NCBI RefSeq assembly: GCF_000719975.1
Contig: NZ_JOIJ01000003.1
Location: forward strand, 308,979-372,978
DNA length: 64,000 nt
From: Prauserella rugosa
GTDB taxonomy: Bacteria > Actinomycetota > Actinomycetes > Mycobacteriales > Pseudonocardiaceae
Direction of reading: 5' to 3'
The first letter of the stretch is position 1. Each line of letters begins with the position of its first letter. Positions 43,958-62,095 of this stretch are shown piece by piece. The notes under the pieces were generated by a model. It saw only the letters and a program-made list of their open reading frames with translations. It did not search any database and had not been told where the DNA came from. The position numbers and the translations under genes are program-made.

Positions 43958-44008
43958 CTACCGACAACCCCTTACGTGTTCCGTCCCGGCGCGTTCCGTC
44001 CGGACATG

Positions 44009-44943
<935 letters not shown>

Positions 44944-44947
<4 letters not shown>

Positions 44948-46475: not shown

Positions 46476-47245
46476 GGGGCGACCCGGTCCAGGAACCGGA
46501 CGAGGTGCCCGGTGTAGGTCTCGCGGCGTTCGACCATCGGGATGTGCCCGCATTCGGCGACGGTCACGAACTCGGCCCGGTCCTGCTCGGCCACGAGCTC
46601 GGCCCATGGGTCCACCGGGGTCATGCGGTCGTGGGCTCCCCACACGTACAGCGAAGGGCACTGCACCTTGTCCAGCCCCGCCGGTACGGCGTAGGTGCGG
46701 GTCGCGCGCAGGCTGCGGGCCATCGCGACCATGGCCGATCCGGTGCCGAGCAGCTCTCCGGTCTCCTGGATCTGCTGTTCGGTGAACAGGGGCTCGCCGT
46801 GGAAGAGGGCCGCGAGCATCCGCTCGCGGAACTGGTCGGATGCCAGTTTCACACTGCCCCTGCGGTCCATGCTCAATCCGACGTCGGGTTCGGTGCTGAG
46901 CCCGGGGGCACCGCTGACGACGATGCCCCGTACCCGCTCGGGACAGCGGCCCGCGAGGTCGATGGCGACGAGGCCGCCGAGGGAGTTCGCGCAGACGACC
47001 ACGTCCCGTGCGCCTGCCTCGTCACATGCGGCGAGCAGCTCGTCGCCGAGCCGTTCGATCGAGCCTGCCACCTTCGGTTCGACCGCGCAGATCGCCTCGT
47101 TGATCCGCAGGACGGGGTGTCCGGCCCGATCGAGTTCGGTGAACGGGTGGTCCCAGATCCACTTGCCGGCGAACAGCGCGGACATGAACACCACCAGCGG
47201 CCTGTCCCCCGTGGGGTTGCGATGTTCTGCGGTGAAGACGGACAC
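46472..47245 (-). CDS. Alpha/beta-fold hydrolase of the biosynthetic operon
   Basis: 257 residues with the nucleophile elbow CANSLGG (Ser), an acid loop (VWGAHDRMTP) and the late His (CGHIPMVE). No typical thioesterase gene exists in the operon, so this may release the chain from the ACP, or open a lactone or ester. The oxyanion region is VFMSALFAGKWIW, not HGxP. Coupled to AcpS by GTGA. Confidence 0.82.
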   Translation of the reverse strand: MSVFTAEHRNPTGDRPLVVFMSALFAGKWIWDHPFTELDRAGHPVLRINEAICAVEPKVAGSIERLGDELLAACDEAGARDVVVCANSLGGLVAIDLAGRCPERVRGIVVSGAPGLSTEPDVGLSMDRRGSVKLASDQFRERMLAALFHGEPLFTEQQIQETGELLGTGSAMVAMARSLRATRTYAVPAGLDKVQCPSLYVWGAHDRMTPVDPWAELVAEQDRAEFVTVAECGHIPMVERRETYTGHLVRFLDRVAP

Positions 47246-47249
47246 GGGG

Positions 47250-48137
47250 TCACTCCTCGGGTCGCGGGAACAGGGGGCCGGCCTGCGGTGGGGCGTTGCG
47301 GTCGCGCTCGCTGTCGCCGCCGCCTGCGCAGCTGCAGGTCTGATCGGCCGACACCACCCCGTGACAGACGGGGCAGCGCAGGTAGAGGCTGTCGCGCTCG
47401 AGCGACCACACGCTGGTGTAGGCCCCGGTGCAGAGTCCGCCGCGGAAGAACCGCCGCATGGCGCGCTGGTGGGGTCGTGCGTGTACCGCGCGGACCGCGG
47501 ACAGCGAGTCGAAGACGCTCAGGGTGTACCGGCGGTCGCCGATCTCGAAGATCGCCGCCCCGAGGAACCCCTTGCTGTGCCGCAGCGACTTGACGACCTC
47601 GTAGGTGAGCTGGTTGACGTCGGCGCCCTCCGCCTCATCGGCGACGTCGAGCCAGGTGAGGGTCAGCGCGCCGGGAGCGATCGCACGTCCGGTGCCTGCG
47701 CCCATGCTGATGCCGTACTGGAAGCCGTCGGCGGTGCGCGGAAGGAACCGCGCGGCGTGGCCGAGCGACTCGGCGAGCGCGAGCCGGTCGAAGTGGCGCG
47801 TGACCGCGACCCGCTCGCCCACTCTCCGCAGCACGTCGACGCCGCTGACCGAGGCATGCCCTCCGGCAGCCGGCATGCCGAGGTACGTGCCGCGCTGCGC
47901 GGCGGTGACGGTCCAGTCGAGCACGATCGTGTGTTCGGTGGCCGCCGCGGCGGCCGGGTCGGCCTCCATCTGCCTCTGGGGAAAACGGTCGAACACAGCC
48001 TCCAGATGGGCCTCGAGCCGCGCTCCCGACAGTGCCCCGCCGGTGTCCGGGTCCGAAAAGGACTCCGTCAGCGCGAGGACGTCCGCGACGTTGCCCGCGC
48101 GCCAGGCATCCAGCCACCGCCGTGCCAGGTCCCTCAT
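47250..48137 (-). CDS. SnoaL-like protein with C-terminal Cys-rich (zinc-ribbon-like) tail
   Basis: 295 residues in three parts. 1-125 matches the SnoaL/NTF2-like alpha+beta barrel (polyketide cyclase or hydroxylase folds). 140-245 resembles an ABM/dimeric alpha-beta-barrel monooxygenase (VNQLTYEVVKSLRHSKGFLGAAIF). The last 50 include CPVC (Cys255, Cys258) and CSC (Cys268, Cys270), which could bind zinc or an Fe-S centre. I know of no standard enzyme with this order. Coupled to the preceding PPTase gene by ATGA. Confidence 0.75.
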   Translation of the reverse strand: MRDLARRWLDAWRAGNVADVLALTESFSDPDTGGALSGARLEAHLEAVFDRFPQRQMEADPAAAAATEHTIVLDWTVTAAQRGTYLGMPAAGGHASVSGVDVLRRVGERVAVTRHFDRLALAESLGHAARFLPRTADGFQYGISMGAGTGRAIAPGALTLTWLDVADEAEGADVNQLTYEVVKSLRHSKGFLGAAIFEIGDRRYTLSVFDSLSAVRAVHARPHQRAMRRFFRGGLCTGAYTSVWSLERDSLYLRCPVCHGVVSADQTCSCAGGGDSERDRNAPPQAGPLFPRPEE

Positions 48138-48586
48138 CGCCGCACCTGCCCGTCTCCGTCGGGTTCGGTGTCCTCGGGCAGCAGCGCGGATTCCAAGGCG
48201 ACGGCCACGGCAATCCCGGATCCGTGGCTGATCGACACTCCGACCCGGCGGCCAGGCGCGACACGATCCCGCAGAACTCCGGTCAACCGCACCGCGGGCG
48301 GGTGCCCGTGCGCGCACGCGGCGGTGCGCCGGCACATCGGCGACGGACGTGGCAGGACCTCGACCGCACCGAGCGCCTGCTCCCCGACGGGCACGCCGAG
48401 CAACCGCAGCACCGCGTACTTCGCCGCGAGCCGGCCCGCCCAGTGCTGCACGGTCCTGCCCCGGCCCGACCTCAGCCGCTCGGCTCGCGTGAAGACGTGT
48501 TCCACCGGCATCGGCGCGACGAGCTCGACCGGCCCGCGCACGTCGTCGAACGGCACCGCGGCACTGGCGCTTCCCGGGCAGCTCAT
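48134..48586 (-). CDS. Degenerate AcpS-like phosphopantetheinyl transferase homologue
   Basis: 150 residues that keep the AcpS/PPTase C-terminal signature VSISHGSGIAVAVAL and the helical RLAAKYAVLRLLG. The N-terminal Mg-binding Asp segment is missing, and the active-site Glu of (F/W)AAKEA is Tyr57. It should not be catalytic by the AcpS mechanism. It may help ACP binding or be a partner of the intact AcpS two genes away. Coupled to the malonyltransferase stop by ATGA. Confidence 0.65.
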   Translation of the reverse strand: MSCPGSASAAVPFDDVRGPVELVAPMPVEHVFTRAERLRSGRGRTVQHWAGRLAAKYAVLRLLGVPVGEQALGAVEVLPRPSPMCRRTAACAHGHPPAVRLTGVLRDRVAPGRRVGVSISHGSGIAVAVALESALLPEDTEPDGDGQVRR

Positions 48587-49494
48587 CGGGCACCACCCGG
48601 GATCAGTCGGCGCAGCGCGCCCGGGTCGGACATGCTCACGCAGCGGACACCGACGGTTCGGAACATGCCGGTGAGTGCCTTGCTGTCGCCCACCTCCACG
48701 CACCGATCCACAGTGGACATCGCGGAGAAGGCGGTCATCGTGCGCGTCCACTGGACCCTGGCGACCAGTTGGTCGATCAGTGCGTCGGTGATGACCCGCA
48801 GGTCTGTGGTCGGTTCGCCGGTGGCGTTCGGTACGACGGGGATCCGCGGCGGCCGCAACGGCGCTGCCCGTACGGTCTCGGCCCACGCGTCGACGGCGCC
48901 CGCCATGAGCGGAGAGTGGAACGCGTGGCTGACCTTCAACGCCGTGATACTGCGCGCGTCGGTGGCCGCAGCCGTGAACCGCTCGAGTGCCTCCGGCGCA
49001 CCGGAGACCACCACCTGGTCCTCGGCGTTGTCGAGGCCGACCACCAACGGCTCGCCCGGCCGGGATGCCTCCCCGGCCAGTTCCTCGACCCTGGCCACCG
49101 GAAGTCCCAGGACCGAGCTCATGACGCCGCGGCCGGGCAGCTGTGCCATCAACTCCGAGCGGTCGGCGACCAGGCGCAGCGTCTCGCCCAGCTCGAGTAC
49201 GCCCGCGGCGCAGAGCGCGCTCAGCTCGCCGACACTGTGACCCGCCACGACGTCGGGAGCCACGCCCCGGTCGCGCAGCACCGCCAGCGCGGCCAGGTTG
49301 CACGCCGTCACGGCCGGCTGGGCGTTGCGAGTGTCGACCAGCCTGGCCAACGGGCCACGCGAACACAGCCGTGTCAGATCGTCTCCGGTCTCGTCGGCCT
49401 GTGTCCACACGGGAGCCGCGGCGGCCTCCTTGCGTAACCATCCACCCATGCCGACGCGCACGGTCCCCTGGCCGGGGAACACGAAACCGATCAC
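48583..49494 (-). CDS. Malonyl-CoA:ACP transacylase (FabD-like)
   Basis: 303 residues with GHSVGE (Ser87), the carboxylate-binding Arg112 (VADRSELM) and HAFHS (His193). HAFH is the malonyl-specifying version, so the extender unit should be malonyl and not methylmalonyl. The usual GQGSQ is GQGTV. A dedicated malonyltransferase is not always present in type II clusters and suggests that this ACP is loaded inside the operon. Confidence 0.92.
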   Translation of the reverse strand: MIGFVFPGQGTVRVGMGGWLRKEAAAAPVWTQADETGDDLTRLCSRGPLARLVDTRNAQPAVTACNLAALAVLRDRGVAPDVVAGHSVGELSALCAAGVLELGETLRLVADRSELMAQLPGRGVMSSVLGLPVARVEELAGEASRPGEPLVVGLDNAEDQVVVSGAPEALERFTAAATDARSITALKVSHAFHSPLMAGAVDAWAETVRAAPLRPPRIPVVPNATGEPTTDLRVITDALIDQLVARVQWTRTMTAFSAMSTVDRCVEVGDSKALTGMFRTVGVRCVSMSDPGALRRLIPGGAR

Positions 49495-49513: not shown

Positions 49514-50398
49514 TCACAGCCTGCGCCGGCGGGACGGCGCCGCGGCCGATCGCATCGAGCCGAGGAAACCGCGCAGGAGGTCGGTGGTCAGCGCGGGCTG
49601 GTCGAGCGGGATCCAGTGTCCGGCGTCCTCGACCCGTTCGTAGCGCCACGGGCCCTTGACGAACTTCTGCGAGCCCGTCATGCCCTCCTCCAGCAGCGCC
49701 TGGTCGCCCGTCGACCAGACCCCGAGTGTCGGGGCCAGCACCGGCGGGAAGTTCCGCTCGACACGCAGTTCGGACTCCGGGGACCGGTTCGCCCGGTACC
49801 AGTTCAGTGCCGCCGTGAGCGCACCCGGCTTGGCGAGTTCCCTCGGATACCGGCGGTGGTCGCCGTCACTGCCGATGATCTCCTTGAACAGGCGCCATCC
49901 GTTGCGGCGCAACAGTTCCTCACTGACACCGGGGAACTGGTAGAAGAGCATGTACCAGCTGGCCTTGCGCTGTTCGATCGTCGGCGTGGCGAACACGCCC
50001 GGATGACCGACCGAGAACACGGCGAGGTGGTCCACCCGACGCGGCATCAGGAACGCGTACATCCAGGCGATCGCCGCTCCCCAGTCGTGTCCGACCAGGT
50101 GTGCCCTGCTGATCCCGAGGTGCTGGGTCAGACCCACGATGTCGTTGACGAGGGTGCGCATGTCGTAGGACTCGACGTCCTGCGGTTTGCTCGACTCCCC
50201 GAAACCACGCTGATCGGGCACGATCACGCGGTGTCCCGCCTCCACGAGCGGGTCGATCTGGTGGCGCCACAGGTAGTGCGAGTCGGGAAAGCCGTGCAGC
50301 AGGACCACCGGGTCGCCCTCGCCCTTGTCGACGTAGGCGATGTCGACCCCGTTGACGTGCACGGAATCGGTGAGCAACGACTGCGTGGTGCTGGTCAT
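49514..50398 (-). CDS. Epoxide hydrolase/haloalkane-dehalogenase-like alpha/beta hydrolase
   Basis: 294 residues: HGFPDS (oxyanion), GHDWG with nucleophile Asp105, an acid in WSTGDQAL and the late His in DAGHWIP. Asp as nucleophile separates it from ester hydrolases and fits epoxide ring opening. Next to it are an FAD oxidoreductase and a nitroreductase, so it may open an epoxide that one of them makes. Coupled to the FAD gene by ATGA. Confidence 0.85.
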   Translation of the reverse strand: MTSTTQSLLTDSVHVNGVDIAYVDKGEGDPVVLLHGFPDSHYLWRHQIDPLVEAGHRVIVPDQRGFGESSKPQDVESYDMRTLVNDIVGLTQHLGISRAHLVGHDWGAAIAWMYAFLMPRRVDHLAVFSVGHPGVFATPTIEQRKASWYMLFYQFPGVSEELLRRNGWRLFKEIIGSDGDHRRYPRELAKPGALTAALNWYRANRSPESELRVERNFPPVLAPTLGVWSTGDQALLEEGMTGSQKFVKGPWRYERVEDAGHWIPLDQPALTTDLLRGFLGSMRSAAAPSRRRRL

Positions 50399-51639
50399 AC
50401 CGTCTCCCTGAACAGACGCTCGACGAAGAACTCGCTGAAGCCGAACTCCGGGACTTCCTCCGGCGGGACCATGTTGAGCAGGCCGAGAACCTGAGCGGCC
50501 GAGTTCTCGTCCATGAGTGCGCGAACCCGCCTCCTGCGCGCGGTGGCCTCGGGACCGAACTCGCACTGCAGCCGGGATATGACCGAGGCGCCGAACACCA
50601 GGCGCTCCATCCGGAAGCGCCGTTCGTCCTGATAGGACCGGAAGATCTCCGGGGTCCATTCGCTCTCGGCGAGCAGGATGTCGGACACGATCCGCACGTC
50701 CCGCATTGCGCACGACAGCCCGACGCCGAGCACGGTGTCGGATGTTCCGGCCTCGTCGCCGACCAGCACGACGCCGTCGGTCACGATGTCGCGCTGGGGC
50801 CGGTAGGTGATCGCGGGCCACTCCTTCAGCGGCCCGATCGGGCGGGCCGCTGCGTACACGGACTTGCCACCGTCGGGAAGGGAATCCAACGCGAAGCCGG
50901 CCAGGAACCGCTCGACTCCCCCGTCGCCGCGGTACTGGTGACGCCTGCTCGTCGGATAGTTGAGGTACAGCCGGGCCAACCCGTCGCCCTGCGGGAAGAC
51001 CATGAAGTTGCGCTCGCCCTCGGTGCCCATCGCCTGCACGTCCATGGGCCAGTCGGCGAGGCCCTCGACCCGCAGACCCGCACCCCAGTGGTCGACCGTG
51101 GTGCTCATCGGCAGGCCGACCTGCCTGCCGACGCGGCAGTTGGTCCCGGTGGCGCCGACCACGATTCGGGCGTGCAGCTCGACGTGCTCACCGTCCGCGC
51201 GGTAGCGGACGACCGGCTCCGGGCCGGCCTCGACGGTGCAGTCGGCGGCACCCATGACGATCTCGGCACCGCTCTCGGCGGCCTGCTCGGCGATGGCCTC
51301 GCACACCAGATGATGCGGGAAGCCCCGCGGGCCGCCGGCTCCGGGGACGAAACCGGTCATGTCGACGGTGACGGCCTCGTCCGGTGCGACGACCTCGTCC
51401 CACTGCGTCCACTCGCGGATCTCCCACCCGCCCCCGAACGCAACGGCCTCGTCGACGCCGAGGCGTTGCGCCTCCTGCACGCCCCAGGGGGCGAACCACT
51501 CGCCCCGCACGAGGTCGGAGTAGGCCTCCTGCCGTTCCAGCAGAACCACCGAGAGGCCGTTCGCGCTCAGGTATGCCGCGGCCGCCGTGCCGGCGACTCC
51601 GCCCCCGACGATCGCCACGTCGCAGTTCGCCGTCGTCAT
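50395..51639 (-). CDS. FAD-dependent monooxygenase/oxidoreductase
   Basis: 414 residues starting MTTANCDVAIVGGGVAGTAA (Rossmann GxGxxG). VRGEWFAPWGVQE near residue 45 and VLVGDEAGTSDTVLGVG near 290 are typical of PHBH-fold monooxygenases and related reductases. ATG 51639 is chosen because it gives an ATGA overlap with the nitroreductase stop; ATG 51648 is three codons further. A hydroxylase, epoxidase or desaturase of the polyketide would fit. Confidence 0.82.
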   Translation of the reverse strand: MTTANCDVAIVGGGVAGTAAAAYLSANGLSVVLLERQEAYSDLVRGEWFAPWGVQEAQRLGVDEAVAFGGGWEIREWTQWDEVVAPDEAVTVDMTGFVPGAGGPRGFPHHLVCEAIAEQAAESGAEIVMGAADCTVEAGPEPVVRYRADGEHVELHARIVVGATGTNCRVGRQVGLPMSTTVDHWGAGLRVEGLADWPMDVQAMGTEGERNFMVFPQGDGLARLYLNYPTSRRHQYRGDGGVERFLAGFALDSLPDGGKSVYAAARPIGPLKEWPAITYRPQRDIVTDGVVLVGDEAGTSDTVLGVGLSCAMRDVRIVSDILLAESEWTPEIFRSYQDERRFRMERLVFGASVISRLQCEFGPEATARRRRVRALMDENSAAQVLGLLNMVPPEEVPEFGFSEFFVERLFRETV

Positions 51640-52355
51640 GCCTGCCATCCCTCCCAGCTCGTGCGGGAGGCAGCCGGACGCCGCTTCGCCGGTGCGAAGT
51701 CACCGCCGACGGTGTGGGCGACGGGCACCATGCACACCTGGGTGACGCCGCCGGGGATGCCGAGCAGCTCGGCGACCCGGCGTTCGAACGGCAGGTGCAT
51801 GCAGGTGATGGTGCTGCCGAGGCCCCGGCTGCGGAGAGCGAGCTGGAACGACCAGATCGCGGGGAAGATCGACCCGTAGAACGTGCTGGCACGCATCGCC
51901 CCGAGCCGGACGTCCTGGCGGGCGGTCTGCTCGTCCTGCGGACGGCTGCGGAGCCATTCCGCATCGACCTCGCAGATGTCCGGCGGCCTGCCGAGCACAC
52001 ACGGGATCACGAGAACCGGAACGCGGGCGATGTTCCTCGCGAGCGTCTCGGCCGACTCGTTGTTGCGCTGTGCCGCGCGGCTGGTCCTACGCCTGCCCGA
52101 GTTGGTCCAGACCTCACGCCGGTGGAACCGCCACGAGGTGTCGAAGACCTCCGACAGCTCCTGCTTCAGCGTGTCGTCGGTGACGACCACCCACCGCCAC
52201 GACTGGTGGTCGTTGGCGTTCGGCGCCTGCACCGCGACCTCGAGGGCCTCCTCGATCAGCTCGCGTGCCACCGGCCGGTCGAGGTCGAGCCTGCGCCGTA
52301 CCGACCGGGTCGTCGACAGCAGCCGATCGGTCTCGGCGACGTCGAAGCCCGTCAT
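51636..52355 (-). CDS. Nitroreductase-family FMN protein
   Basis: 239 residues: TRSVRRRLDLDRPV at the start and APNANDHQSWRWVVV, with the FMN-binding Arg and Asn residues. Members in biosynthetic operons act as dehydrogenases or oxidases (for example, oxazoline oxidation or enone reduction). The substrate is not evident. Coupled to the KS gene stop and to the FAD gene by 4-bp overlaps. Confidence 0.83.
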   Translation of the reverse strand: MTGFDVAETDRLLSTTRSVRRRLDLDRPVARELIEEALEVAVQAPNANDHQSWRWVVVTDDTLKQELSEVFDTSWRFHRREVWTNSGRRRTSRAAQRNNESAETLARNIARVPVLVIPCVLGRPPDICEVDAEWLRSRPQDEQTARQDVRLGAMRASTFYGSIFPAIWSFQLALRSRGLGSTITCMHLPFERRVAELLGIPGGVTQVCMVPVAHTVGGDFAPAKRRPAASRTSWEGWQA

Positions 52356-54508
52356 ACGGCCTCCAGCAACGTGGCGCCCCGCACCGAGCCGGGGGCCGAC
52401 CCCAGCACCAGGGCGGACGCCACCGTCGGGTCACCGCCTGCCGGGGCGGTCGCGGGAGCCACGCCGTCCCGGATCGCCAGTGCACCCACCGCCAGGTCGA
52501 GTGCCCCCGTAACCGACCGCAGGTCGCCCGTCAGCGCAGCCGAGCCCGTGACCGGTGCAGCAGGCAACGCGGCCGCGACGGCCTCCTGCTCCGCCGGGTC
52601 GCCGAGGTGCGCCCCCGAGGCGACGACGAGGTCGGCCGCATGCGCCCCGACCGCACCGATGCCGCGTTCGACGAGGCCGCGTTCGTGCTCACCGATCACC
52701 GACGCGTGGGCGGATCCGCGCACCCGGGCATAGGGCACGTTGCCACGCGAGGCGCTGTGCTCGGCCGACTCCACCACCAGGCAGACCGCGCCCGGACCGT
52801 CCGGCGCCTCGTCCGCGGCGACGACGAGCACCACATCGGCCTTGCCGCAGCGCATCGCCTCGACGGCACAATCGAGGGCGATCGAGGCGGACGCGTTGCC
52901 GTTGCAGATCGTCGTCGTCACACCCCGCAGGCCCAGGGTCTGGCACACGGCACCGCCGGTCGCGTTGAGCACGACGTTGGAGAAGCTCAGCACCGCGGGC
53001 TTCGTCGGATTGGCCAACACGCTCTCGTCGAAGCCGAACGTGCTCTCCACCGAGCCCGCCGCCGTCGCGAACACGACGCCGACGTTCTCCAGCCCGGCCC
53101 TGCCGAGCTTCAGTCCCGCGTCGTCCCAGGCGAGTCGCGAGGCGGCGATGGCCATGCGGGACAACCGATTCATGTGCCGCCAGACCGACCGCGGGGCGAA
53201 CGTGCGGCCCTCGAGCGACGGTTCGCCGCCGTGCACGCGGCGCCGCTCGCCGAGCGCCGTCGACAACTCGTCCACGCCGATGCCGAGCGAAAGCACCGGC
53301 CCCAGTCCGGTCACGACGACGTCCGGTTCCGGCAGCTCGTCGAAATCCCGCTGCGGACCCGGTGTGCGCAGGACGAGGGACGCGTTGTTGCCCCCGAACG
53401 CGTAGTTGTTGGACACGACGACATCCATGTCCAGCTCACGTGCGGTGTTGGGTACGAAGTCGAGGGGTGCGGAGGCCACGTCCTCCTCGCCGAACCCGAT
53501 CGTCGGCGGCGCCGTGCCGTTGCGCAGGGCCAGCACGCTGGCGACCGCCTCGACCGCACCCGCAGCGCCGAGGGTGTGCCCGATGAACGACTTGATGCTG
53601 CTCGTGGGCACCGACGCGGCGCGCTCGCCGAAGACGGTCCGCATGACCTTCTTCTCCATGGCGTCGTTGGCCGGGGTGCCGGTGCCGTGGCCGTTGACGT
53701 AGTCGACGTCGTCGGCGCCCAGCCCCGCGTCCGCGAGCGCGCGGCGCACCGCGCTCGTGCCGCCGCGTCCGGTCGGATCCGGCGCGGTCGCGTGGTAGGC
53801 GTCGGCGGACAACCCGTACCCCGCGACCTCGGCGAGCGGCTCCGCTCCCCGTGCGAGCGCGGCGTCGAGCGGCTCGACGACCACGAACGCCGCACCCTCG
53901 CCAAGGTTCAACCCTTCCGAGCGGCTGTACGGGGCGCACGGACCCGTGCTGAGCGCCTGCAGGCCCGCGAATCCGGCGTACGTGCCGAACAGCAGCGGGT
54001 CGACCCCGCCTGCGAGCACCACGTCGGCCTCTCCGGTGAGGATCTTGTCCCTGGCCAGTCCCACCGCGTTGCCGCCTGCTGCGCACGCGGTCGAGACGAG
54101 GATCCGTGGCCCGCCCGCCGCCAGTCTGCCGGCCACGATGTCGGCCGTGGCGTGCATCGGCTGATACGCGCCGTCCCCTGCCGGCGTCGCCTGGCACTTG
54201 CCGAGCACCACTCCGAACCGGTCGGAGGGCACGTCGGCCAGGCCCGCGTGTGTGACGGACTGCCGTGCGGCGACGAGTGCGAGGCGCGCCGTGCGGTCGA
54301 GTTCGTGGTCGGCCGCGGGCAGCTGGTCGTCGATCCACTCGTCGGGTACCTGGCCGGCGAACCGGGCGTCGAACGCGGCGAACCGCTCGTCCCGGACGGC
54401 CGAGATCCCCGACTCGCCCGCGACCAGCGTCTGCCAGAACTCGCCGGAGTCGCGACCGGCCGCACAGATGACGCCGACCCCCGTGATCACGACAGGGCGC
54501 AACACCAT
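52352..54508 (-). CDS. Single-chain ketosynthase-chain-length-factor fusion
   Basis: 718 residues hold two thiolase-fold ketosynthase domains. Domain 1 (1-~385) has a full KS triad: Cys142 in STACAAGG, His274 in NGHGTGTP and His311 in SFIGHTLGAAG. Domain 2 (~395-718) is shorter and lacks both histidines, although Cys535 lies where the nucleophile Cys would (TTICNGNAS). This is the profile of a KSalpha-KSbeta (CLF) pair, which in type II systems is made from two genes. Here the two are joined by a ~15-residue linker (PGPQRDFDELPEPD). With KR and DH in the same operon it should build a reduced, probably polyene chain. Confidence 0.9.
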   Translation of the reverse strand: MVLRPVVITGVGVICAAGRDSGEFWQTLVAGESGISAVRDERFAAFDARFAGQVPDEWIDDQLPAADHELDRTARLALVAARQSVTHAGLADVPSDRFGVVLGKCQATPAGDGAYQPMHATADIVAGRLAAGGPRILVSTACAAGGNAVGLARDKILTGEADVVLAGGVDPLLFGTYAGFAGLQALSTGPCAPYSRSEGLNLGEGAAFVVVEPLDAALARGAEPLAEVAGYGLSADAYHATAPDPTGRGGTSAVRRALADAGLGADDVDYVNGHGTGTPANDAMEKKVMRTVFGERAASVPTSSIKSFIGHTLGAAGAVEAVASVLALRNGTAPPTIGFGEEDVASAPLDFVPNTARELDMDVVVSNNYAFGGNNASLVLRTPGPQRDFDELPEPDVVVTGLGPVLSLGIGVDELSTALGERRRVHGGEPSLEGRTFAPRSVWRHMNRLSRMAIAASRLAWDDAGLKLGRAGLENVGVVFATAAGSVESTFGFDESVLANPTKPAVLSFSNVVLNATGGAVCQTLGLRGVTTTICNGNASASIALDCAVEAMRCGKADVVLVVAADEAPDGPGAVCLVVESAEHSASRGNVPYARVRGSAHASVIGEHERGLVERGIGAVGAHAADLVVASGAHLGDPAEQEAVAAALPAAPVTGSAALTGDLRSVTGALDLAVGALAIRDGVAPATAPAGGDPTVASALVLGSAPGSVRGATLLEAV

Positions 54509-54536
54509 GGTGTCTCCTCGATCCGTGAACAGCCCG

Positions 54537-55631
54537 TCAGATGATCGGGGTGCTCCAGCTCTTCGGCGTGACGTACGGACTGGTCAATGTCGTCACCTCG
54601 GCGTCGCCGACGGTCAGCGTCAGCCCTGCCGCCGCGAGGTCGGGAGTCACCCTGGCGAGACCGAGGGTCGTGCCCAGCGCGACGCTGTGCACGGCGTGCA
54701 CCACCTCGCCCACGACCTCACCGCCAGCCAGCACTGCCGCGCCCCGCTCGGGCAGGGACGTGGAGCCGGAGAAGCCGACCGTGCGTTTGGTGTCCGGCGA
54801 CGCGAAGGCTGCCTGGACGGCGTCCTTGCCGACGAAGTCGTCCTTGGTGATGTCGACGAGCCAGCCTGCTCCCATCTCGACGACGTCGGCCCCGGCCGCC
54901 TCGAAGCGCGTGATCGGCTGGCGCACCTCGAGCATCGCCAGTTCCAGTGCCTCGTATCCCGCCGGCGTGGCCTCGGCGGTCGCGAGGGTCCACAACTTCT
55001 CGACGGCATCGGCGGCGACGAGCACCTTGTAGCCGTATTCCGCGGTCGCACCGGTGCGGGCGAACACGATGTCCACGCCGTCCCACGATGCGTCCACAAC
55101 GGACTCGAACGGCAGCGCGGCGAGCTCGCCGTCGATGAGCCGTCCGACGACACCCCACGCGTAGGGGCCCTCGAAGGCCAACAGCGCCAGCTCGTCCGAT
55201 CGATCGGTGATGCTCACCCCGTTGCCGGCCTCGGCGTGGAGGTGCTCCAGCAGTCGTGGCCCCGCGCCCACCGACCCCGCCAGCAGCAGACCGTCCTCCC
55301 TGCCCCACACCTCGACCTGGTCGACGACCGCACCGTCGGCGGTGAGCACCAGGCTGGTCATGCAGCGCTCGGCGGTGAGGAACTCGACGTCCCTGCCCAG
55401 GACCCGCTGGGCGAAGTCGGTGGCGTCATCGCCGGTGATCTCGATCAGCGGCGTGCCTGCGAGGTCGAACACGGCGCTGCGATGCCGGATCGCCTCGTAC
55501 TCGTCGGCCAGTGCCGCGTAACGCATCGCGACGACGGCGTCCCCCACCGCGCCGTACACCGTCGTGTCCGGGTACGTACCGCTCAGCGGCGACGTGGGGC
55601 TCGGGGAGGCGCTGCTCTGGGTCTCAGACAT
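54537..55631 (-). CDS. GcvT-like (aminomethyltransferase family) folate-binding protein
   Basis: 364 residues with the GcvT/DmdA/LigM fold: Asp104 in LTADGAVVDQV matches the catalytic Asp of the GGxxDD motif. The C-terminal barrel ends with GEVVHAVHSVALGTTLGLARV. Members bind tetrahydrofolate and move a one-carbon unit, in glycine cleavage, O-demethylation or DMSP demethylation. No gcvH/gcvP genes are adjacent, so it is not part of a glycine cleavage complex. It sits between the dehydratase and KS genes and is probably specific to the pathway. Actual reaction unknown. Confidence 0.85.
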   Translation of the reverse strand: MSETQSSASPSPTSPLSGTYPDTTVYGAVGDAVVAMRYAALADEYEAIRHRSAVFDLAGTPLIEITGDDATDFAQRVLGRDVEFLTAERCMTSLVLTADGAVVDQVEVWGREDGLLLAGSVGAGPRLLEHLHAEAGNGVSITDRSDELALLAFEGPYAWGVVGRLIDGELAALPFESVVDASWDGVDIVFARTGATAEYGYKVLVAADAVEKLWTLATAEATPAGYEALELAMLEVRQPITRFEAAGADVVEMGAGWLVDITKDDFVGKDAVQAAFASPDTKRTVGFSGSTSLPERGAAVLAGGEVVGEVVHAVHSVALGTTLGLARVTPDLAAAGLTLTVGDAEVTTLTSPYVTPKSWSTPII

Positions 55632-55637
55632 GGGTTG

Positions 55638-56147
55638 TCACACCTTTCCGTTGGTCGCGGACGGATCGGCGAGGGTGATCGACCCCTCCGCGACCACCGA
55701 ACCGTCCACTCGCGCGCTGACCTTGTACTCGCAGAATCCGCGCCCGCCCGCGGACCGCTCCGTCGCGAGGCGCAGCGCATCGCCAGGACGGACGGGGCGG
55801 CGGAACCGCATCGACCGCACCCCGGTGAGGTAACCGATGGGTCCTGCGCCGGCGAGTGCGAACACCACGCCCGACAGCTGGGCCAGGGACTCCGTCACCA
55901 ACACGCCGGGGAACACGGCCTCGTCCGGGAAATGCCCCTGGAACCACGGTTCGGTGGCCGCCACGTTCTTCACCCCGGTGGCACGCAGACCCGGCTCGAC
56001 CCGTTCGACGCGGTCCACCAGCAGCATCGGCCACCGGTGCGGCAGGATCTCCCGGATCCGTTCGTTACCGAGGTCGGTCAGCACCTCCGGCACTGCGGAT
56101 GCCTCGCTCACAGCTGTGCCTGACACGGAATCCCGGTCGCGTGTCAT
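55638..56147 (-). CDS. FabZ-like 3-hydroxyacyl-ACP dehydratase
   Basis: 169 residues; PHRWPMLLVDRV and GHFPDEAVFPGVLVTESLAQ. His72 and Glu86 (14 apart) are the hot-dog-fold dehydratase pair. It removes water from the 3-hydroxyacyl-ACP to give the trans-enoyl chain. With no enoyl reductase in the operon, double bonds should remain and accumulate. Coupled to the ACP gene by ATGA. Confidence 0.92.
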   Translation of the reverse strand: MTRDRDSVSGTAVSEASAVPEVLTDLGNERIREILPHRWPMLLVDRVERVEPGLRATGVKNVAATEPWFQGHFPDEAVFPGVLVTESLAQLSGVVFALAGAGPIGYLTGVRSMRFRRPVRPGDALRLATERSAGGRGFCEYKVSARVDGSVVAEGSITLADPSATNGKV

Positions 56148-56455
56148 ACCGCGGACGCCGCGCCGGGCTCGGTCTTCGGCAACGACGGATCGACGTGCTC
56201 GGCCAGCCGCGACACGGAACCGAACACCGACATGTCGCTGTCGTAGAGCGCGACGTCGAACTCGGCCTCGATGGCGACGTAGAGCTCGAGCACGTCAAGG
56301 CTGTCGAGTTCCAGTCCCCGGCCGAACAGCGGCTGGTCGTCGGTGATCCAGTCCGCGTCGATGGGCAGGTCGAGGCGGGACACGATCATCTTCTTGATCC
56401 GCGAGCACGTCTGCTGCCGGGCGGCGGCCGCGGCACGGAGTTCGTCGATGGTCAC
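56144..56455 (-). CDS. Acyl carrier protein
   Basis: 103 residues; the 4'-phosphopantetheine site is Ser52 in LELDSLDVLE. The N-terminal ~20 residues and the C-terminal ~15 are extensions compared with fatty-acid ACPs. It is expected to carry the growing chain in the pathway. 45 bp after the ketoreductase gene. Confidence 0.93.
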   Translation of the reverse strand: MTIDELRAAAAARQQTCSRIKKMIVSRLDLPIDADWITDDQPLFGRGLELDSLDVLELYVAIEAEFDVALYDSDMSVFGSVSRLAEHVDPSLPKTEPGAASAV

Positions 56456-56500
56456 AGGTCTCCTCCGAAGGTGCTGGACTGATCGGAAATGCCGGGGTGG

Positions 56501-57247
56501 TCAGCCGAGTCCGCCGCCGTTGGCGATGAAGGTCTCGCTGGTGATGTAGGACGCCTTGTCCGAGGCCAGGAAGGTCACGAGGTGGGCGATCTCCTCGGGT
56601 TTGCCCATGCGTCCCAGGCGAATCCGCGAGGCGTACGTCTCGCGCAGCTTCGCCGGGATCGCCTTCGTCATGTCGGTCTCCACGAAGCCGGGGGCCACCG
56701 CGTTGACCCGCACGCCGTACGGCGCGGCCTCGTACGAGAGCGCCTTGCTGAACGCGATGATCGCGCCCTTCGAGGCCACGTAGTTGGTCTGTCCCGGGAA
56801 CCCGCCGTCGAGCCCGCTCGCCGAACTGAGCGTCACGATGGAGCCGCTGCGCTGATGCTGCATGATGCGCATCGCCTCGCGGCACGCATGGAACGTGCCC
56901 TTCATGTTGATGTCCATCGTTTCGTCGAACTGCTCGCCGCTCATCGCGACCAGGTGCCGGTCGCGCGTGATCCCCGCGCTCGTGACGAGGACGTCGAGGC
57001 GGCCGTGTTCACCACGTACGGAGCGGAACATCTCGCGCACGGCCGTTTCGTCGGTGACGTCGGCCCGCACGGCCGATGCCGAACCGCCCTCGGCCTCGAT
57101 GCGCGCGACGAGCTGCGTGGCCGAATCCTCCGAACGCGAGTAGTTGACCACCACGTGGTTCCCGTGCGCGGCCAGGTCCAAGGCGACCGCCTTGCCCAGT
57201 CCGCGGGAACCTCCGGTGACCAGAGCCACCGAACCAGCTGCGAACAT
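56501..57247 (-). CDS. 3-ketoacyl-ACP reductase (FabG-like SDR)
   Basis: 248 residues with the NADPH loop TGGSRGLG and the catalytic Asn114, Ser141/142, Tyr156 and Lys160 (YVASK). It reduces the 3-keto group after each condensation, which makes the polyketide reduced and not aromatic. First gene of the 17-gene minus-strand run; the promoter lies in the 177-bp gap with the FAD hydroxylase gene. Confidence 0.93.
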   Translation of the reverse strand: MFAAGSVALVTGGSRGLGKAVALDLAAHGNHVVVNYSRSEDSATQLVARIEAEGGSASAVRADVTDETAVREMFRSVRGEHGRLDVLVTSAGITRDRHLVAMSGEQFDETMDINMKGTFHACREAMRIMQHQRSGSIVTLSSASGLDGGFPGQTNYVASKGAIIAFSKALSYEAAPYGVRVNAVAPGFVETDMTKAIPAKLRETYASRIRLGRMGKPEEIAHLVTFLASDKASYITSETFIANGGGLG

Positions 57248-57424: not shown

Positions 57425-59059
57425 ATGGCTGACATCGAGGTGGACGTGCTCATCGTCGGCGGCGGACCGGTCGGCTTGAGCGCCTCGCTGGAGTGCTCGC
57501 GGCACGGACTGACCTCGCTGCTGGTCGAGAAGCATGCGGGAACGTCCATCTTCCCCAAGGCACGGCTGGTGTCCACCCGCACCATGGAACTGCTGCGGTC
57601 GTGGGGACTTCAGGACGAGGTGGAGCGTGCCGGTCTGCCCAGAGAGGACAGTCTCGCCGTCGGTGTCGGAACCTCGCTCACCGCCGACGACTTCCACCGG
57701 GAGACCGCGCCGATCGCGGCGGACGCGCCGCAGAGCCCCACCTACGCCTACATCTGCGCCCAGGACGAACTCGAGGTGATCCTCAAGCGCACGGCGGAGA
57801 CCCTCCCGGGCGCCGATGTCCGCTTCGCGACCACGATGACCGCGTTCTCCCAGGACGGAGACGGGGTGTCGGCGACGATCGAGTCGTCCGGTGCCACGGC
57901 CGAGGTGCGCAGCGCCTACGTGATCGCCGCGGACGGGGCGCGCAGTTCGATCCGAGAGCGACTCGCCATCGGAGTCGACGGCCCGCCTCCCATCGGGCAC
58001 ATGATCAGCATCATGTTCGAGGCCGACATCGGAGATCTGCTTCACGATCGCAGGTGTGCGCTCTACTTCCTCCGCAGCACGATCCCCTGCGCGGTCGAGG
58101 CCGTCGACAACGACCGCAGGTGGCTCGTCCAAACCGGATACGACCCGGCCGAGGGTGGCAGCGCCGACGACTTCACCCCCGAGTTCTGCACCGAGATCGT
58201 CCGGGAGGCCGTGGGCATCGGCGAACTGGACGTGACACTGATCGCGACGATGCCGTGGCTGCAACAGGCCGTGACCGCACGGAGCTACCGCGACGGCCGG
58301 ATATTCCTCGCCGGGGACTCGGCACACGTGAGCACCCCCCAGGGCGGTTTCGGGATGAACTGCGGCATTCAGGACGCCCACAACCTCGTGTGGAAGATCG
58401 CCGCCGTCCACAAGGGGCACGCCGGGGAGGGTCTGCTCGACACCTACGGCCCCGAACGCCGGCCGATCGGTGAGCGCACCGTGGGTGAGAGCCTCACCAA
58501 CGCGCTGATCACCTTCCGCATGATGGAGGGCGAACTGACCATGGCCGAGGCCATCGCGCTGCAGGCAGGGCGCCGTAGCAGCGAAGGACTCGTCCTCGGC
58601 TTCCACTACGACTCCGCGGCGGTCGTCGGCGACGGTTCGCCGCCGCCTCAGCCCGACGACCCGTATCGCACCTATGTCCCGACCGCCCGTCCGGGGCACC
58701 GCGCGCCCCATGTGACCGTGCATCGCGCAGGCGCACGAATGTCCACTCTGGACCTCCTCGGCACCGGGTTCACGCTGTTCACGACGCCGGGCAGTGGCTG
58801 GTCGGACATCGCCGCCGACGTGGCCGCCCGCACCGGTGACCACGTCGTGCCCGTGGAACTCGACCCCGGCCTGCCGACGGGAGGCGGACTCTGCGCACCC
58901 GGCTGGACGGAGGCGTACGGCACGTCGACGACGGGGGCCGTACTCGTGCGCCCCGACGGACACGTCGCGTGGCGTTACGCCGGCACCGACGGGAACGTCC
59001 TCGACGGGCGGCGCGCGCTCGTCGAGGCCCTCGACGACGTCCTGAGCCGGAGCCACTGA
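57425..59059 (+). CDS. Class A flavoprotein aromatic hydroxylase
   Basis: 544 residues of the RdmE/PgaE/MhpA type: VDVLIVGGGPVGLSAS (FAD), the DG region AADGARSSIR, GDSAHVSTPQGGFGMN (FAD/substrate loop), and a C-terminal thioredoxin-like domain. It uses NAD(P)H and O2 to hydroxylate a ring or polyene end. ATG 57425 starts right before the Rossmann strand. It is the only core-region gene on the plus strand besides the aminotransferase. Confidence 0.9.
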   Translation: MADIEVDVLIVGGGPVGLSASLECSRHGLTSLLVEKHAGTSIFPKARLVSTRTMELLRSWGLQDEVERAGLPREDSLAVGVGTSLTADDFHRETAPIAADAPQSPTYAYICAQDELEVILKRTAETLPGADVRFATTMTAFSQDGDGVSATIESSGATAEVRSAYVIAADGARSSIRERLAIGVDGPPPIGHMISIMFEADIGDLLHDRRCALYFLRSTIPCAVEAVDNDRRWLVQTGYDPAEGGSADDFTPEFCTEIVREAVGIGELDVTLIATMPWLQQAVTARSYRDGRIFLAGDSAHVSTPQGGFGMNCGIQDAHNLVWKIAAVHKGHAGEGLLDTYGPERRPIGERTVGESLTNALITFRMMEGELTMAEAIALQAGRRSSEGLVLGFHYDSAAVVGDGSPPPQPDDPYRTYVPTARPGHRAPHVTVHRAGARMSTLDLLGTGFTLFTTPGSGWSDIAADVAARTGDHVVPVELDPGLPTGGGLCAPGWTEAYGTSTTGAVLVRPDGHVAWRYAGTDGNVLDGRRALVEALDDVLSRSH

Positions 59060-59119: not shown

Positions 59120-60613
59120 CTAGGACATCCCCGCCGCGGCCCGGCGCAGCGACAACGGATTGCCGCCCGCCATCCCGGCCAGCCGACCCGCCGTGTGGGG
59201 GCTGCTGTCGACCCAGCTCCGGCCGAGCAACAGCGCGAGCAGTTCCCGTGATTCGCCCGGCTGCAAGGGCCCCAACGGCAGCCGTGCCGAACCTTGCCGC
59301 ACGACCAGTTCGTCGAGTCGCTCGCGGCTGGTCACCAGGACGCGGGTTCCCGAACAACCGGGCAGCAACGGCAGCACCTGACTCTCGCAGGCCGCGTCGT
59401 CGAGCACGACCAGCATCCGGCGGCGGGCCACGGTGCTGCGGTACAACGCGATCCGTTCCTGGAGATCCGCGGGAATGGCGTGCTCGGCGATCCCCATCGC
59501 TCGCAGGGAACGTTCGAGTACGGTCCCGGCCGCCACGGGCCTGCCCTGGTCGTCGCGCAAGGTCGCGAACAGCTGGCCGTCGGGGAATCGGCCGGCTCGC
59601 TGGTGCGCCCAGGTCAGCGACAGTGCGGTCTTGCCGACGTCGGCCGGGCCACTGACGACGATCGTGCCCGCCGTCTCTTCCGAGCCGCACAGCGCATCGT
59701 CCAGTTCACCCAGCTCGTCCCTGCGGCCGGCGAACGGGACCGGCCGCCGTGGCAGTTGCGACGGAACGCCTGCGCGGTCCGCCCGCTCGGCCGGGCCGGA
59801 CCGGGCCGAGGGCCCCACCCCGGTCGCGTTGCCGGTGCGGGACGCGGCCTCGATGCCCGGCCTGGCCAACGTGGGTGCATCCCTCAGGATGCGCTCGTGC
59901 AGTTCTCGCAGATGCGGACCGGGCTCGAGGCCGATCTGCTCGACGAGCACCCGGCGCGCGTCCTGATACGTGCGCAGCGCATCGGCGCGGCGGCCGGCCC
60001 GGTACTGCGCGAGCATCAGCTGTGCCCTGGCCCGTTCCCTCAGCGGCTGGTCGGCCACGACCGCCGAGAGGTCGGCGACGACCCGCTCGTGCCTGCCGAG
60101 GTCGAGCTCCAGCTCCGCACACGTCTCGATCGCGTCGAGCCGCGCCTCGTGCAGCCGGTGTGCCTCGATCCGCAACCCGGGAAGGTCGTCGAACGGCATG
60201 CCCTCCCACAGCTGCAACGCCTCCCGCATCAGGGCCACCGCGGCGAGCTTGTCGCCCGCCGTGGTCTTCGCCGCGGCCCTGCCCGTCAGCGAACCGAACC
60301 GCAGCCAGTCCGCCGCGTCGTCCTCGAGCCGCATCAGGTAGCCGGGACTCGCCGTCGTGACCGCCGTGTCGAGGCCGACGCCCCTGAGCGCCCTGCGCAA
60401 CCGCGACACACAGATCGCGACCTGGTTCCGCGCGCTCGAGGGCGCATCCCCTCCCCAGATCGCACCGATGAGCCGGTCGACACTGACGACCCGGTTCGCT
60501 TCGAGGACCAGGCTGGCGAGTACCGCCTTTTCCCTGGCACCACCGAGCCGAACCTCGCTGCCTCCACTCAGGACGCGAACGGGTCCCATGATCCGGATCT
60601 CGGCACCGGTCAT
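59120..60613 (-). CDS. SARP-family activator with NB-ARC domain
   Basis: 497 residues: an OmpR-like winged helix (EIRIMGPVRVLSGGSEVRLGG ... VVSVDRLIGAIWG, 1-~95), a bacterial transcriptional-activation (BTAD) domain (~100-250), and an NB-ARC-type ATPase domain with P-loop SGPADVGKT. Ends without the TPR repeats of full-length AfsR. Cluster-situated SARPs usually activate biosynthetic genes. It overlaps the glycosyltransferase stop (TGATG), so it may be made from the same message. Confidence 0.9.
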   Translation of the reverse strand: MTGAEIRIMGPVRVLSGGSEVRLGGAREKAVLASLVLEANRVVSVDRLIGAIWGGDAPSSARNQVAICVSRLRRALRGVGLDTAVTTASPGYLMRLEDDAADWLRFGSLTGRAAAKTTAGDKLAAVALMREALQLWEGMPFDDLPGLRIEAHRLHEARLDAIETCAELELDLGRHERVVADLSAVVADQPLRERARAQLMLAQYRAGRRADALRTYQDARRVLVEQIGLEPGPHLRELHERILRDAPTLARPGIEAASRTGNATGVGPSARSGPAERADRAGVPSQLPRRPVPFAGRRDELGELDDALCGSEETAGTIVVSGPADVGKTALSLTWAHQRAGRFPDGQLFATLRDDQGRPVAAGTVLERSLRAMGIAEHAIPADLQERIALYRSTVARRRMLVVLDDAACESQVLPLLPGCSGTRVLVTSRERLDELVVRQGSARLPLGPLQPGESRELLALLLGRSWVDSSPHTAGRLAGMAGGNPLSLRRAAAGMS

Positions 60614-61824
60614 CAGAGTCCGCCGATCACGTCGGCGGCCCGCTCGGCGCCGCCTGCCTCGGCGATGACCGTGCGAAACCGGTTCGCGGTCGCTGCGGCC
60701 ACCGGGTCGGACAGGACCGCCTCGACAGCCTCGGCCAACGTGGCGGGATCGAGCCGTTCCGGGTCGACGAGCCTGCCGAGTCCGAGGTCCCGGATGCGCC
60801 AGCCCGTCGGCCGGTCGAGCGCGGACGTCGGTACGCACACCAGCGGCGTCCCGCAGCTCAGCGCCTCCAGCACCGTGCCCATCCCGCCGTGCGTGACGCA
60901 CAGTGCGGCGTGCCGGAGAACGGCAACGTGCGGCACCCAGCGATGCACCTCGACGTTCGGGGGAAGCTCGCCCAGTTCGGCTGGTTCGATGCCGTCGGCC
61001 ACGGTCACGACCGCGTGCCAGTCGCGCCCGCGGAACGCGTCGATGCACCGCGCGAAGATGTCCCGGTGCTCGTTGAACACCGCGCCGAGGGAGACCAGCA
61101 CGATCGGGGTGTCTCCCGCGGGCGGCTCCCACTCGCCGAGGAATCCTCGGTCACCGATGCACGGTCCGGTGAACACGAAGCGGTCGTCGAACGAGTCCCC
61201 CTCGTACTGGAACTCCCGCGGCAGTGTCACCACGCTGCGGTCGGGGACCTCGAACCACAGTTCGTGCGGCGCGACGTCGAGTCCGTACCGGGCGCACAGG
61301 GTGCCGATCCGCACCATCGTGGTGGTGACCCACTCCGGCATCTCGGTGGGCCGCTGTTCGGCTGGCCGCTGGCCACCCTCGTCGTTGTACATCGCGTTGA
61401 GGTACGAGAACTTCTCGTTCGAGGCGAAGAACGGGACGGTCTGCACCGCCTCGCAGTCCCAGACCCGCGCCAGCACGCGTCCCGCGTACAGCACCGAGGT
61501 GTCGTAGACGACGCAGTCGACGGGACCGAGGCCGGCCGAGTCGGATCCGTCCGCCAGTGCCGCCTCGAGGATCGCCTCGCTCTCGTCCAGCAGCACCGAC
61601 ATCAGGTATCCGGGGTCGTTCTCGAGCTCGGTGAAGTCGGCGTCGCGATAACGCGACTCGTATGTGGCGACGGCGGCACCCGTACCGGCGACGACGTCCC
61701 GCATGCTCGGCGCCGTCAGGTAGGTCACGTCGTGACCGCGGCGCACCAGTTCCGCCGCCATCGCCAACGTCGGCACCACGTGCCCGTGATCGGGGTGGCA
61801 CACAAACAGAATCGTGCTCGTCAT
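60613..61824 (-). CDS. GT1-family natural-product glycosyltransferase
   Basis: 403 residues with GT-B fold: CHPDHGHVVPTLAMA at the start and the nucleotide-sugar-binding THGGMGTVLEALSCGTPLVCVP. Members attach NDP-deoxysugars to polyketide or macrolide aglycones. The sugar is not fixed by the sequence; the nearby aminotransferase suggests an aminosugar. Confidence 0.9.
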   Translation of the reverse strand: MTSTILFVCHPDHGHVVPTLAMAAELVRRGHDVTYLTAPSMRDVVAGTGAAVATYESRYRDADFTELENDPGYLMSVLLDESEAILEAALADGSDSAGLGPVDCVVYDTSVLYAGRVLARVWDCEAVQTVPFFASNEKFSYLNAMYNDEGGQRPAEQRPTEMPEWVTTTMVRIGTLCARYGLDVAPHELWFEVPDRSVVTLPREFQYEGDSFDDRFVFTGPCIGDRGFLGEWEPPAGDTPIVLVSLGAVFNEHRDIFARCIDAFRGRDWHAVVTVADGIEPAELGELPPNVEVHRWVPHVAVLRHAALCVTHGGMGTVLEALSCGTPLVCVPTSALDRPTGWRIRDLGLGRLVDPERLDPATLAEAVEAVLSDPVAAATANRFRTVIAEAGGAERAADVIGGL

Positions 61825-61921: not shown

Positions 61922-62034
61922 ACCCCTAACCGCCGCGAAAGCCGCGTCGCACGGCGGATTGCGCGATCCGGAGTAGTGGTCTGAACCGTCCGGGCCTGTT
62001 CCGAGGCAGGCACCCCAGTGGGCGGGTTAGGGGT
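61922..62034. promoter_or_regulatory. Divergent promoter region with inverted CCCCTAACC repeats
   Basis: ACCCCTAACCGCC (61922-61934) and GGCGGGTTAGGGGT (62021-62034) are inverted, apart from one extra base. A third CCCCTA lies at 62055-62060. The pair lies between the glycosyltransferase (minus) and aminotransferase (plus) starts and may be a binding site for a cluster regulator. Confidence 0.45.
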
Positions 62035-62095
62035 TGCCCGAGGCGGCCCGTGCGCCCCTAGGCTGGCGCCACCACGCGCGAGCCGAAGGATGACG

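Follow-up and report, generated by a model that had tools for sequence, protein, structure and literature searches.

The stretch of the Prauserella rugosa genome analysed here (64,000 nucleotides of contig NZ_JOIJ01000003.1, positions 308,979 to 372,978 of the forward strand; called the window below, in whose numbering all positions are given) contains a minus-strand open reading frame (ORF) at 52352-54508 in which a ketosynthase (KS) is followed by a chain length factor (CLF) in one chain. This raises the question of which kind of synthase uses such a fused protein and what it produces. The original prediction for 52352..57247 was a highly reducing type II polyketide synthase (PKS) with a covalently fused KS-CLF that makes a polyene. 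From the computational analysis described here it is probable that the gene set encodes a single-chain reducing type II PKS working with a pseudo-GcvT partner, i.e. a protein of the glycine cleavage T-protein fold, and that its unsaturated chain is then oxidised, exported and, in this organism, probably glycosylated. The core consists of the following genes:

52352..54508, minus strand: fused KS-CLF, 718 amino acids (aa; KS about 1-384, CLF about 395-718), assigned from Pfam, alignment and model
54537..55631, minus strand: pseudo-GcvT, 364 aa, Pfam GCV_T and GCV_T_C, without the T-protein residues Asp96, Glu195 and Arg231 (Thermotoga maritima numbering)
55638..56147, minus strand: FabZ-type dehydratase (DH), NCBIfam FabZ 141.1 against a cut-off of 113 bits, GHFP His and downstream Glu present
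56144..56455, minus strand: acyl carrier protein (ACP), Pfam PP-binding and sequence, DSL serine present
56501..57247, minus strand: ketoreductase (KR), FabG-like short-chain dehydrogenase/reductase, NF009466 (FabG subfamily) 234.1 against a cut-off of 222
48583..49494, minus strand: malonyl-CoA:ACP transacylase-like protein (MAT), GHSVG, best model FabD with 204.4, below the cut-off of 260.9

For the KR, 3-oxoacyl-ACP reductase models score best in the NCBIfam scan. The GHFP His and the Glu of the DH are presumably its catalytic motif.

The KS-CLF frame stays open over 718 codons without a stop. In Pfam, residues 4-339 match the ketoacyl-synt N and C domains, and a further stretch passes as ketoacyl-synt N in its own right. 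Alignment of 29 fused proteins, cut in halves, with separate KSs and CLFs places Cys142, His274, Lys306 and His311 in the KS half. The Cys/His/His triad and the Lys are kept in all 29 fused KS halves, and the triad is invariant also in a separate 19-row alignment. At the same columns the CLF half of the window protein exhibits Asn, Ser, Ala and Asp (C142→N, H274→S, H311→D), and the first His is kept in none of the 29 fused CLF halves. The predicted 718-residue chain, with a full KS and a second KS-fold domain without the histidines, was thus borne out, and the catalytic Cys of the second domain is lost as well. Cys535 of the CLF half was considered as a retained active-site Cys; this idea was dropped because the alignment puts the catalytic position at Asn538, three residues on.

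An AlphaFold2 model of the fused protein was obtained with a pTM of 0.94, in which the CLF half is predicted to pack on the KS half as in KS-CLF complexes. Its best Foldseek match in the PDB is the KS-CLF didomain of PfaC from polyunsaturated fatty acid (PUFA) synthases (6riw; 890 columns, TMq 0.82), where a KS is likewise followed covalently by a CLF. PfaC is part of a multidomain synthase. In contrast, the window protein ends after the CLF and the DH is a separate FabZ gene; identity to 6riw is 20% and the rmsd 6.9. Against the NCBIfam model of FabF the whole 718-aa protein reaches 363.9, below the cut-off of 493.75.

To search for relatives, one genome per species was scanned with two exact peptide patterns, so that all locus counts are lower bounds. 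The scan gave 55 loci (numbered L), 40 of them close orthologues, all actinobacterial. A single fused KS-CLF ORF occurs in 39 of the 40; the remaining one (L026) runs off its contig end. KR, ACP, DH, GcvT-like protein and KS-CLF are found together in every orthologous locus (40/40), and the GcvT-like gene always adjoins the KS-CLF gene, with 14-103 bases between their matches. MAT, epoxide hydrolase, SnoaL-like protein and hydrolase occur in 38/40 each, L013 and L026 being cut by contig ends. The recurrence of the five core genes together with that of MAT is beyond chance. With the CLF half as query, 119 proteins were found; identity is 46-77% for the first 92, of which 87 are 676-850 aa long and five are shorter than 600 aa. 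Counting the source genome itself, matches above 1,200 bits were present in 13 of 200 genomes sampled from the family and in 6 of 394 from the class. With 39 of 40 loci fused and the core conserved, KS and CLF are genuinely joined, and the gene set has been under selection for a long time. The fusion is also not unique to the window, as it recurs in the orthologues, in PfaC and in a second, GcvT-free group described below.

The origin of the two halves was investigated in phylogenetic trees. In the joint tree, every KS row falls into one 48-row group (support 100/100), together with the aromatic CLF of S. lavendulae, and none of the 29 fused CLF halves belongs to it. KS and CLF had therefore already diverged when they were joined in the fused gene, which is no product of a recent tandem duplication. 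When KSs alone are included (KS-only tree), the fused KS halves group with CLF-partnered KSs (Tumebacillus, Bacillus, and the E. coli aryl-polyene KS, which we take to be the one labelled ApeO) and with chain B of 9s5h, whose two chains are taken to be a KS and its CLF. A tandem of FabF-like KSs, raised with the original prediction as a possibility to be checked in such a tree, is rejected, since a clade of the 29 fused KS halves with B. subtilis FabF gives a p-AU of 2e-8. The 28 fused KSs without that of Lachnospira are supported with 82/89 in the KS-only and 86/93 in the joint tree. One clade of all 29 has a support of 47/8 and is not rejected (p-AU 0.476). The fused KSs of the GcvT type form a group with 99/98 (KS-only tree). 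An ordinary aromatic type II PKS was rejected as well: the aromatic KS of S. lavendulae falls outside the 36-member group (99/95) holding the fused KSs, and no aromatase is present among the operon genes scanned. None of the trees includes the E. coli ApeC fragment (240 aa), and the KS-only tree was built without L058_KS409, ApeR_Ec, L047_KS2, L070_KS2 and L071_KS2. Some KSs at about 50% identity that look separate, judged from their protein records, appeared in the search with the KS half (P0208, P0211).

The gene between DH and KS-CLF lies inside the span of the original prediction but was missed there, as were the SnoaL-like, epoxide hydrolase and sugar genes. Its 364-aa product contains the Pfam domains GCV_T and GCV_T_C and has the T-protein fold. 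None of Asp96, Glu195 and Arg231 is kept in any of 41 actinobacterial GcvT-like proteins. Asp96 and Glu195 are also missing from seven of seven more distant GcvT-like proteins and are kept in seven of seven true GcvT sequences or domains. Tyr199, Tyr201, Arg237 and Glu244 (numbering of the window protein) are invariant across 44 aligned GcvT-like proteins, with L091 as an outlier that lacks the Arg; L064 gave no match for this alignment and L066 was left out. A PADLOC scan of the protein returned no families. Judged by its sequence, the protein is a core partner of the synthase that has lost the T-protein catalytic and folate residues. It most likely acts on the growing or finished ACP-bound chain, as a cyclase, isomerase or chain-handling subunit. 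To our knowledge, it would be the first of this fold among PKS components.

The same core is shared with Bacillota. Four loci combine MAT, KR, ACP, DH and GcvT-like protein with a fused KS-CLF, here about 810 aa long: Herbivorax (L045, where two ABC genes separate DH from GcvT), a plasmid of Priestia megaterium DSM 1804 (L074), Tumebacillus (L090, where DH and GcvT lie about 3.3 kb apart) and genome G396 (L094). In the first three, the GcvT-like gene again adjoins that of KS-CLF. In L074, the annotations read 'glycine cleavage T C-terminal barrel domain-containing protein' and 'beta-ketoacyl-[acyl-carrier-protein] synthase family protein'. More distant GcvT/KS-CLF neighbours were found in G850 (L104, with MAT, KR, ACP and DH), G030 (L091) and G859 (L105); no MAT match was found within the 19.5 kb covered for L091 and L105. 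The Priestia GcvT-like protein was matched (1e-38) in 10 of 398 genomes of the phylum of Tumebacillus, and a fused KS-CLF adjoins, within the DNA examined, in two of the ten. Two further observations concern these hosts. The Priestia genes form a compact operon (L074:6806-14436) of KR, thioesterase, phosphopantetheinyl transferase (PPTase), MAT, KR, ACP, FabZ, GcvT-like protein and fused KS-CLF, and Tumebacillus permanentifrigoris contains a separate KS/CLF set (L048:7061-11209) in addition to its single-chain KS-CLF with GcvT-like protein (L090).

A second group comprises 14 loci from Paenibacillus, Brevibacillus and Streptomyces plasmids (L043, L044, L046, L047, L070-L072, L092, L093, L101-L103, L106 and L107). 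Like the GcvT type, it has a single-chain KS-CLF and discrete reducing enzymes, and its KSs belong to the same wider group (82/89). It differs in that no GcvT-like match is found in any of the 14 loci within the flanking DNA examined; a KS-like protein stands at this place, just upstream of the fused KS-CLF. In the three KS-like proteins aligned, the active-site Cys is replaced by Ala or Ser. A ketosynthase III match occurs in 11 of the 14 loci, and two of the other three have short flanks. The Streptomyces plasmids of this group also contain ester-cyclase genes, and L071 sugar genes. The neighbour of the fused KS-CLF is thus a GcvT-fold protein in one group and a KS-like protein in the other, and both may be partners of the synthase. 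In a third arrangement, in Lachnospira eligens, an ACP gene lies upstream of the fused KS-CLF. The plasmid region concerned (L073:11245-17327) consists of ACP, fused KS-CLF, KR, FabZ, MAT and an acetyl-CoA carboxylase subunit, a minimal single-chain system in an anaerobe. Whether single-chain reducing type II PKSs of the GcvT type form one family across both phyla, with the GcvT-fold protein recruited as a folate-independent core component that acts on the ACP-bound chain (as a cyclase, isomerase or partner for chain length or geometry) at the place of the KS-like protein of the sister group, is in our estimate an even bet.

Concerning the product, the genes surrounding the core in the window have to be considered:

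51636..52355, minus strand: nitroreductase-family flavoprotein, from the family scan
50395..51648, minus strand: protein of the FAD-dependent monooxygenase/halogenase/GG-reductase superfamily, from the family scan
49514..50395 (start unsettled), minus strand: alpha/beta hydrolase of the epoxide hydrolase group, GHDWG, Asp at the nucleophile place
48134..48586, minus strand: small ORF, 150 aa, probably a PPTase, judged by eye from its likeness to holo-ACP synthase
47250..48140 (start approximate), minus strand: SnoaL-like domain with C-terminal extension, from the family scan
46472..47245, minus strand: alpha/beta hydrolase, possible chain-release enzyme, from family scan and sequence
44944..45984 (start approximate), minus strand: right-handed beta-helix protein, from the family scan
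41604..44947, minus strand: ATP-binding cassette (ABC) exporter with ATPase (44009-44947), permease (42767-43957) and second permease (41604-42770)
57425..59059 (start approximate), plus strand: aromatic-hydroxylase-type FAD monooxygenase, nearest models RdmE/DnrF, below cut-off
59120..60541, minus strand: SARP-type regulator, Trans_reg_C and BTAD, from the family scan
60613..61824, minus strand: glycosyltransferase (GT), MGT family, over cut-off in the family scan
62018..63208, plus strand: DegT/DnrJ/EryC1 sugar aminotransferase, from the family scan

From the KR through the alpha/beta hydrolase at 46472, successive genes are separated by -13 to +45 bases, as in one operon; the nitroreductase gene overlaps that of KS-CLF by 4 bases. 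The original prediction of one operon with KR, FabZ-like DH, ACP and malonyltransferase agrees with this gene run, but the malonyltransferase (48583-49494) lies outside the span 52352..57247. At least 322 bases separate the alpha/beta hydrolase gene from the beta-helix gene, and more if the latter starts later, as seems likely. The beta-helix gene overlaps that of the ABC ATPase by 4 bases and is matched in 35 of the 40 orthologous loci. Of the exporter genes, the ATPase and the permease at 42767-43957 were assigned by family scan; the second permease was placed without one. The weak best PDB matches of the FAD protein at 50395..51648 are the halogenase PltA and squalene monooxygenase. For the epoxide hydrolase a PDB match to 5ng7, also an epoxide hydrolase, was obtained (1.2e-56). 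Pfam and NCBIfam scans gave no match for the ORF at 48134..48586, and similar ORFs occur in relatives. The window ends with the contig.

Several of these genes vary among the 40 orthologous loci. The FAD monooxygenase (FMO) is matched in 38 and the FAD gene in 37; the match in L013 lies elsewhere only, with 36% identity. In Nonomuraea cypriaca and N. longispora (L036, L041) a divergent gene set is found in which the FAD, FMO and beta-helix genes have no match and the nitroreductase is kept. These three genes are therefore regarded as tailoring and outside the core. Beyond DegT, Prauserella isguenensis (L068) and genome G105 (L069) carry genes for a LuxR regulator, a nucleoside diphosphate (NDP)-sugar C-methyltransferase and an NDP-hexose 2,3-dehydratase, their families having been scanned in L068. 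For this lineage, the sugar may therefore reasonably be guessed to be a C-methylated deoxy-aminosugar.

The proposed sequence of events is as follows. MAT would load malonyl onto the ACP, the KS half would condense malonyl units, and the CLF half would bound the chain pocket. KR and FabZ-type DH would process the beta-keto group at every step, and the GcvT-fold protein would handle the growing or finished ACP-bound chain. The original prediction had noted the lack of an enoyl reductase. Scans of the operon genes with Pfam and NCBIfam indeed recognised no dedicated one, but proteins of the nitroreductase family and of FAD monooxygenase type follow the KS-CLF. As no dedicated enoyl reductase accompanies KR and DH, double bonds are expected in the chain unless it is reduced by the nitroreductase. 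Oxidation of double bonds is suggested by the families to which the oxidases and the epoxide hydrolase belong; FAD enzymes may oxidise the chain and the epoxide hydrolase may open the resulting epoxides. GT and sugar genes likewise suggest a glycoside in part of the family, and the ABC genes export, so that the chain would be exported and probably glycosylated with a deoxy-aminosugar. Taken together, the GcvT-fold, SnoaL-like, epoxide hydrolase and sugar genes point to an end product of greater complexity than a simple polyene acid. Of the original proposal, the covalent KS-CLF within a discrete KR/DH/ACP/MAT set is observed, and the polyene product keeps the status of an expectation. Lentzeosides, diene and monoene glycosides from Lentzea sp. 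H45, were assigned to a 40.7 kb oligosaccharide cluster with 3% similarity to known ones in a genome note (PMC13151722), whose accessible part does not list the genes of this cluster. Three Lentzea species carry the gene set (L005, L006, L008), and lentzeosides, from a strain outside the scan, are a candidate for the product of the set.

Among other explanations, a dedicated fatty-acid or lipid synthase survives best. Enoyl reduction would then be carried out by a housekeeping enzyme or by the nitroreductase and FAD proteins, resulting in a saturated or mono-unsaturated lipid. KR, DH, ACP and MAT all match models of fatty acid synthase type, and the nitroreductase, with its gene overlap to KS-CLF, is retained in 39 of 40 loci including the Nonomuraea loci without FAD and FMO genes. 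This retention raised the lipid synthase slightly and lowered the preferred reading slightly. However, the CLF-type second half and the position of the KS away from FabF do not fit, and the Bacillota loci L045, L074, L090 and L094 share the core without a nitroreductase match. We consider a lipid synthase unlikely.

A little less probable still is a system of the cispentacin type, where a KS and a degenerate 'cyclization factor' (CYF) perform a single C2 extension followed by formation of a small ring, with the FabZ-like protein as cyclising decarboxylase. The likeness lies in a KS with a motif-less partner, predicted to form a KS-CLF-like dimer, and in small discrete enzymes (PMC10698177). 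The NCBIfam models of AmcF, AmcE and AmcB match the KS half (237.1 bits), DH (63.5) and ACP (30.4), but all three below their curated cut-offs of 325, 140 and 80, whereas the DH exceeds that of FabZ. AmcF and AmcG are encoded by separate genes, no adenylating enzyme of the AmcH type was recognised among the scanned operon genes, and MAT and FabG-like KR of the operon fit repeated use of malonyl.

Equally improbable is a GcvT-fold protein that works as a folate enzyme and transfers a one-carbon unit to or from the polyketide chain. The fold would allow it, but Asp96 and Glu195 are replaced in all 41 actinobacterial and all seven distant proteins and kept in the seven folate-type sequences. In the PDB, entry titles name a mutated Asp for the T-protein (3a8k, D97N) and for dimethylglycine oxidase (3gsi, D552A), both of which we take to be at the position of Asp96. 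Finally, an assembly or annotation artefact with a missed stop between two genes, the second point to be checked for the original prediction, can practically be dismissed: the fusion is in one frame in 39 of 40 loci, 87 of the first 92 relatives have a length of 676-850 aa, and Bacillota and plasmid records carry the fusion too. The five relatives below 600 aa, and a 396-aa KS (P0205) of 84% identity from the search with the KS half, look like fragments since P0205 ends in the KS-CLF linker and P0206 and others are named partial.

Several observations weigh against the single-chain reducing PKS with an unsaturated product. The distant CLF halves P0095 and P0096 keep the Cys and the second His, and P0097 keeps the second His. 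VIA-align, among the 50 matches listed, covers the KS half, and 6riw is not among them. A PDB sequence search ranks several FabF chains (up to 240 bits) above the ishigamide KS (202), and the KS tree was built without ishigamide KS/CLF, so that it places the fused KSs relative to the clades it contains and not to that one. The nitroreductase, present in 39/40 loci (L026 is cut by the contig end), could be an enoyl reductase. In Priestia (L074) and L100, Asp96 of the GcvT-fold protein is replaced by Glu and Arg231 is kept, so that loss of the folate role is less clear there. The original prediction also excluded aromatase and cyclase; no aromatase was found among the scanned operon genes, but the SnoaL-like protein at 47250-48140 could be a cyclase, a fold that serves other reactions too. 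GT and DegT occur in 24/40 loci each, which places the sugar outside the core. Moreover, no product assigned to the actinobacterial gene set was found in the accessible parts of the literature.

Compared with known systems, the highly reducing type II PKSs for ishigamide and aryl polyenes are closest. The KS Cys/His/His, the inactive CLF and discrete KR, FabZ-like DH and ACP are shared, as is the lack of a dedicated enoyl reductase unless the nitroreductase acts as one, and in the tree the KS half lies with CLF-partnered KSs including that for the E. coli aryl polyene. According to PMC10698177, highly reducing type II PKSs combine a KS-CLF heterodimer with KR and DH, and KS-CYF is an additional subfamily. 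Here, KS and CLF form one 718-aa chain and a GcvT-fold protein belongs to the core, so that the system is a variant of this class and no plain member. Searches of the open literature, with most subscription journals outside their scope and sources available in part, found neither a single-chain KS-CLF in a type II system nor a GcvT-fold PKS partner; judged by titles and abstract starts, literature on fused KS-CLFs concerns PUFA synthesis. The accessible portions of PMC10132072, PMC12664062 and PMC9582728 do not mention a fused type II KS-CLF. Among the matches listed, in part accessible, nothing was found on GcvT or aminomethyltransferase with type II PKSs; the match listed for 9s5h was unrelated, and among those listed for T-protein residues and for the name pBM600 none.

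Within the literature searched, covalent KS-CLFs are known from PUFA synthases, and the discrete version with a GcvT-fold partner is what is new. With the same core in two bacterial phyla, it looks like an overlooked kind of polyketide synthase, probably for unsaturated chains. Engineering of type II PKSs is difficult partly because KS and CLF need co-production and correct pairing. A natural single-chain KS-CLF with discrete KR, DH, ACP and MAT would offer a simple in vitro system for studying control of chain length by the CLF. The actinobacterial gene set is available in 40 loci of named species, and Priestia megaterium DSM 1804, with the same core on a plasmid, is a tractable host. If the GcvT-fold partner indeed acts on the chain, it would add a new fold to polyketide chemistry.

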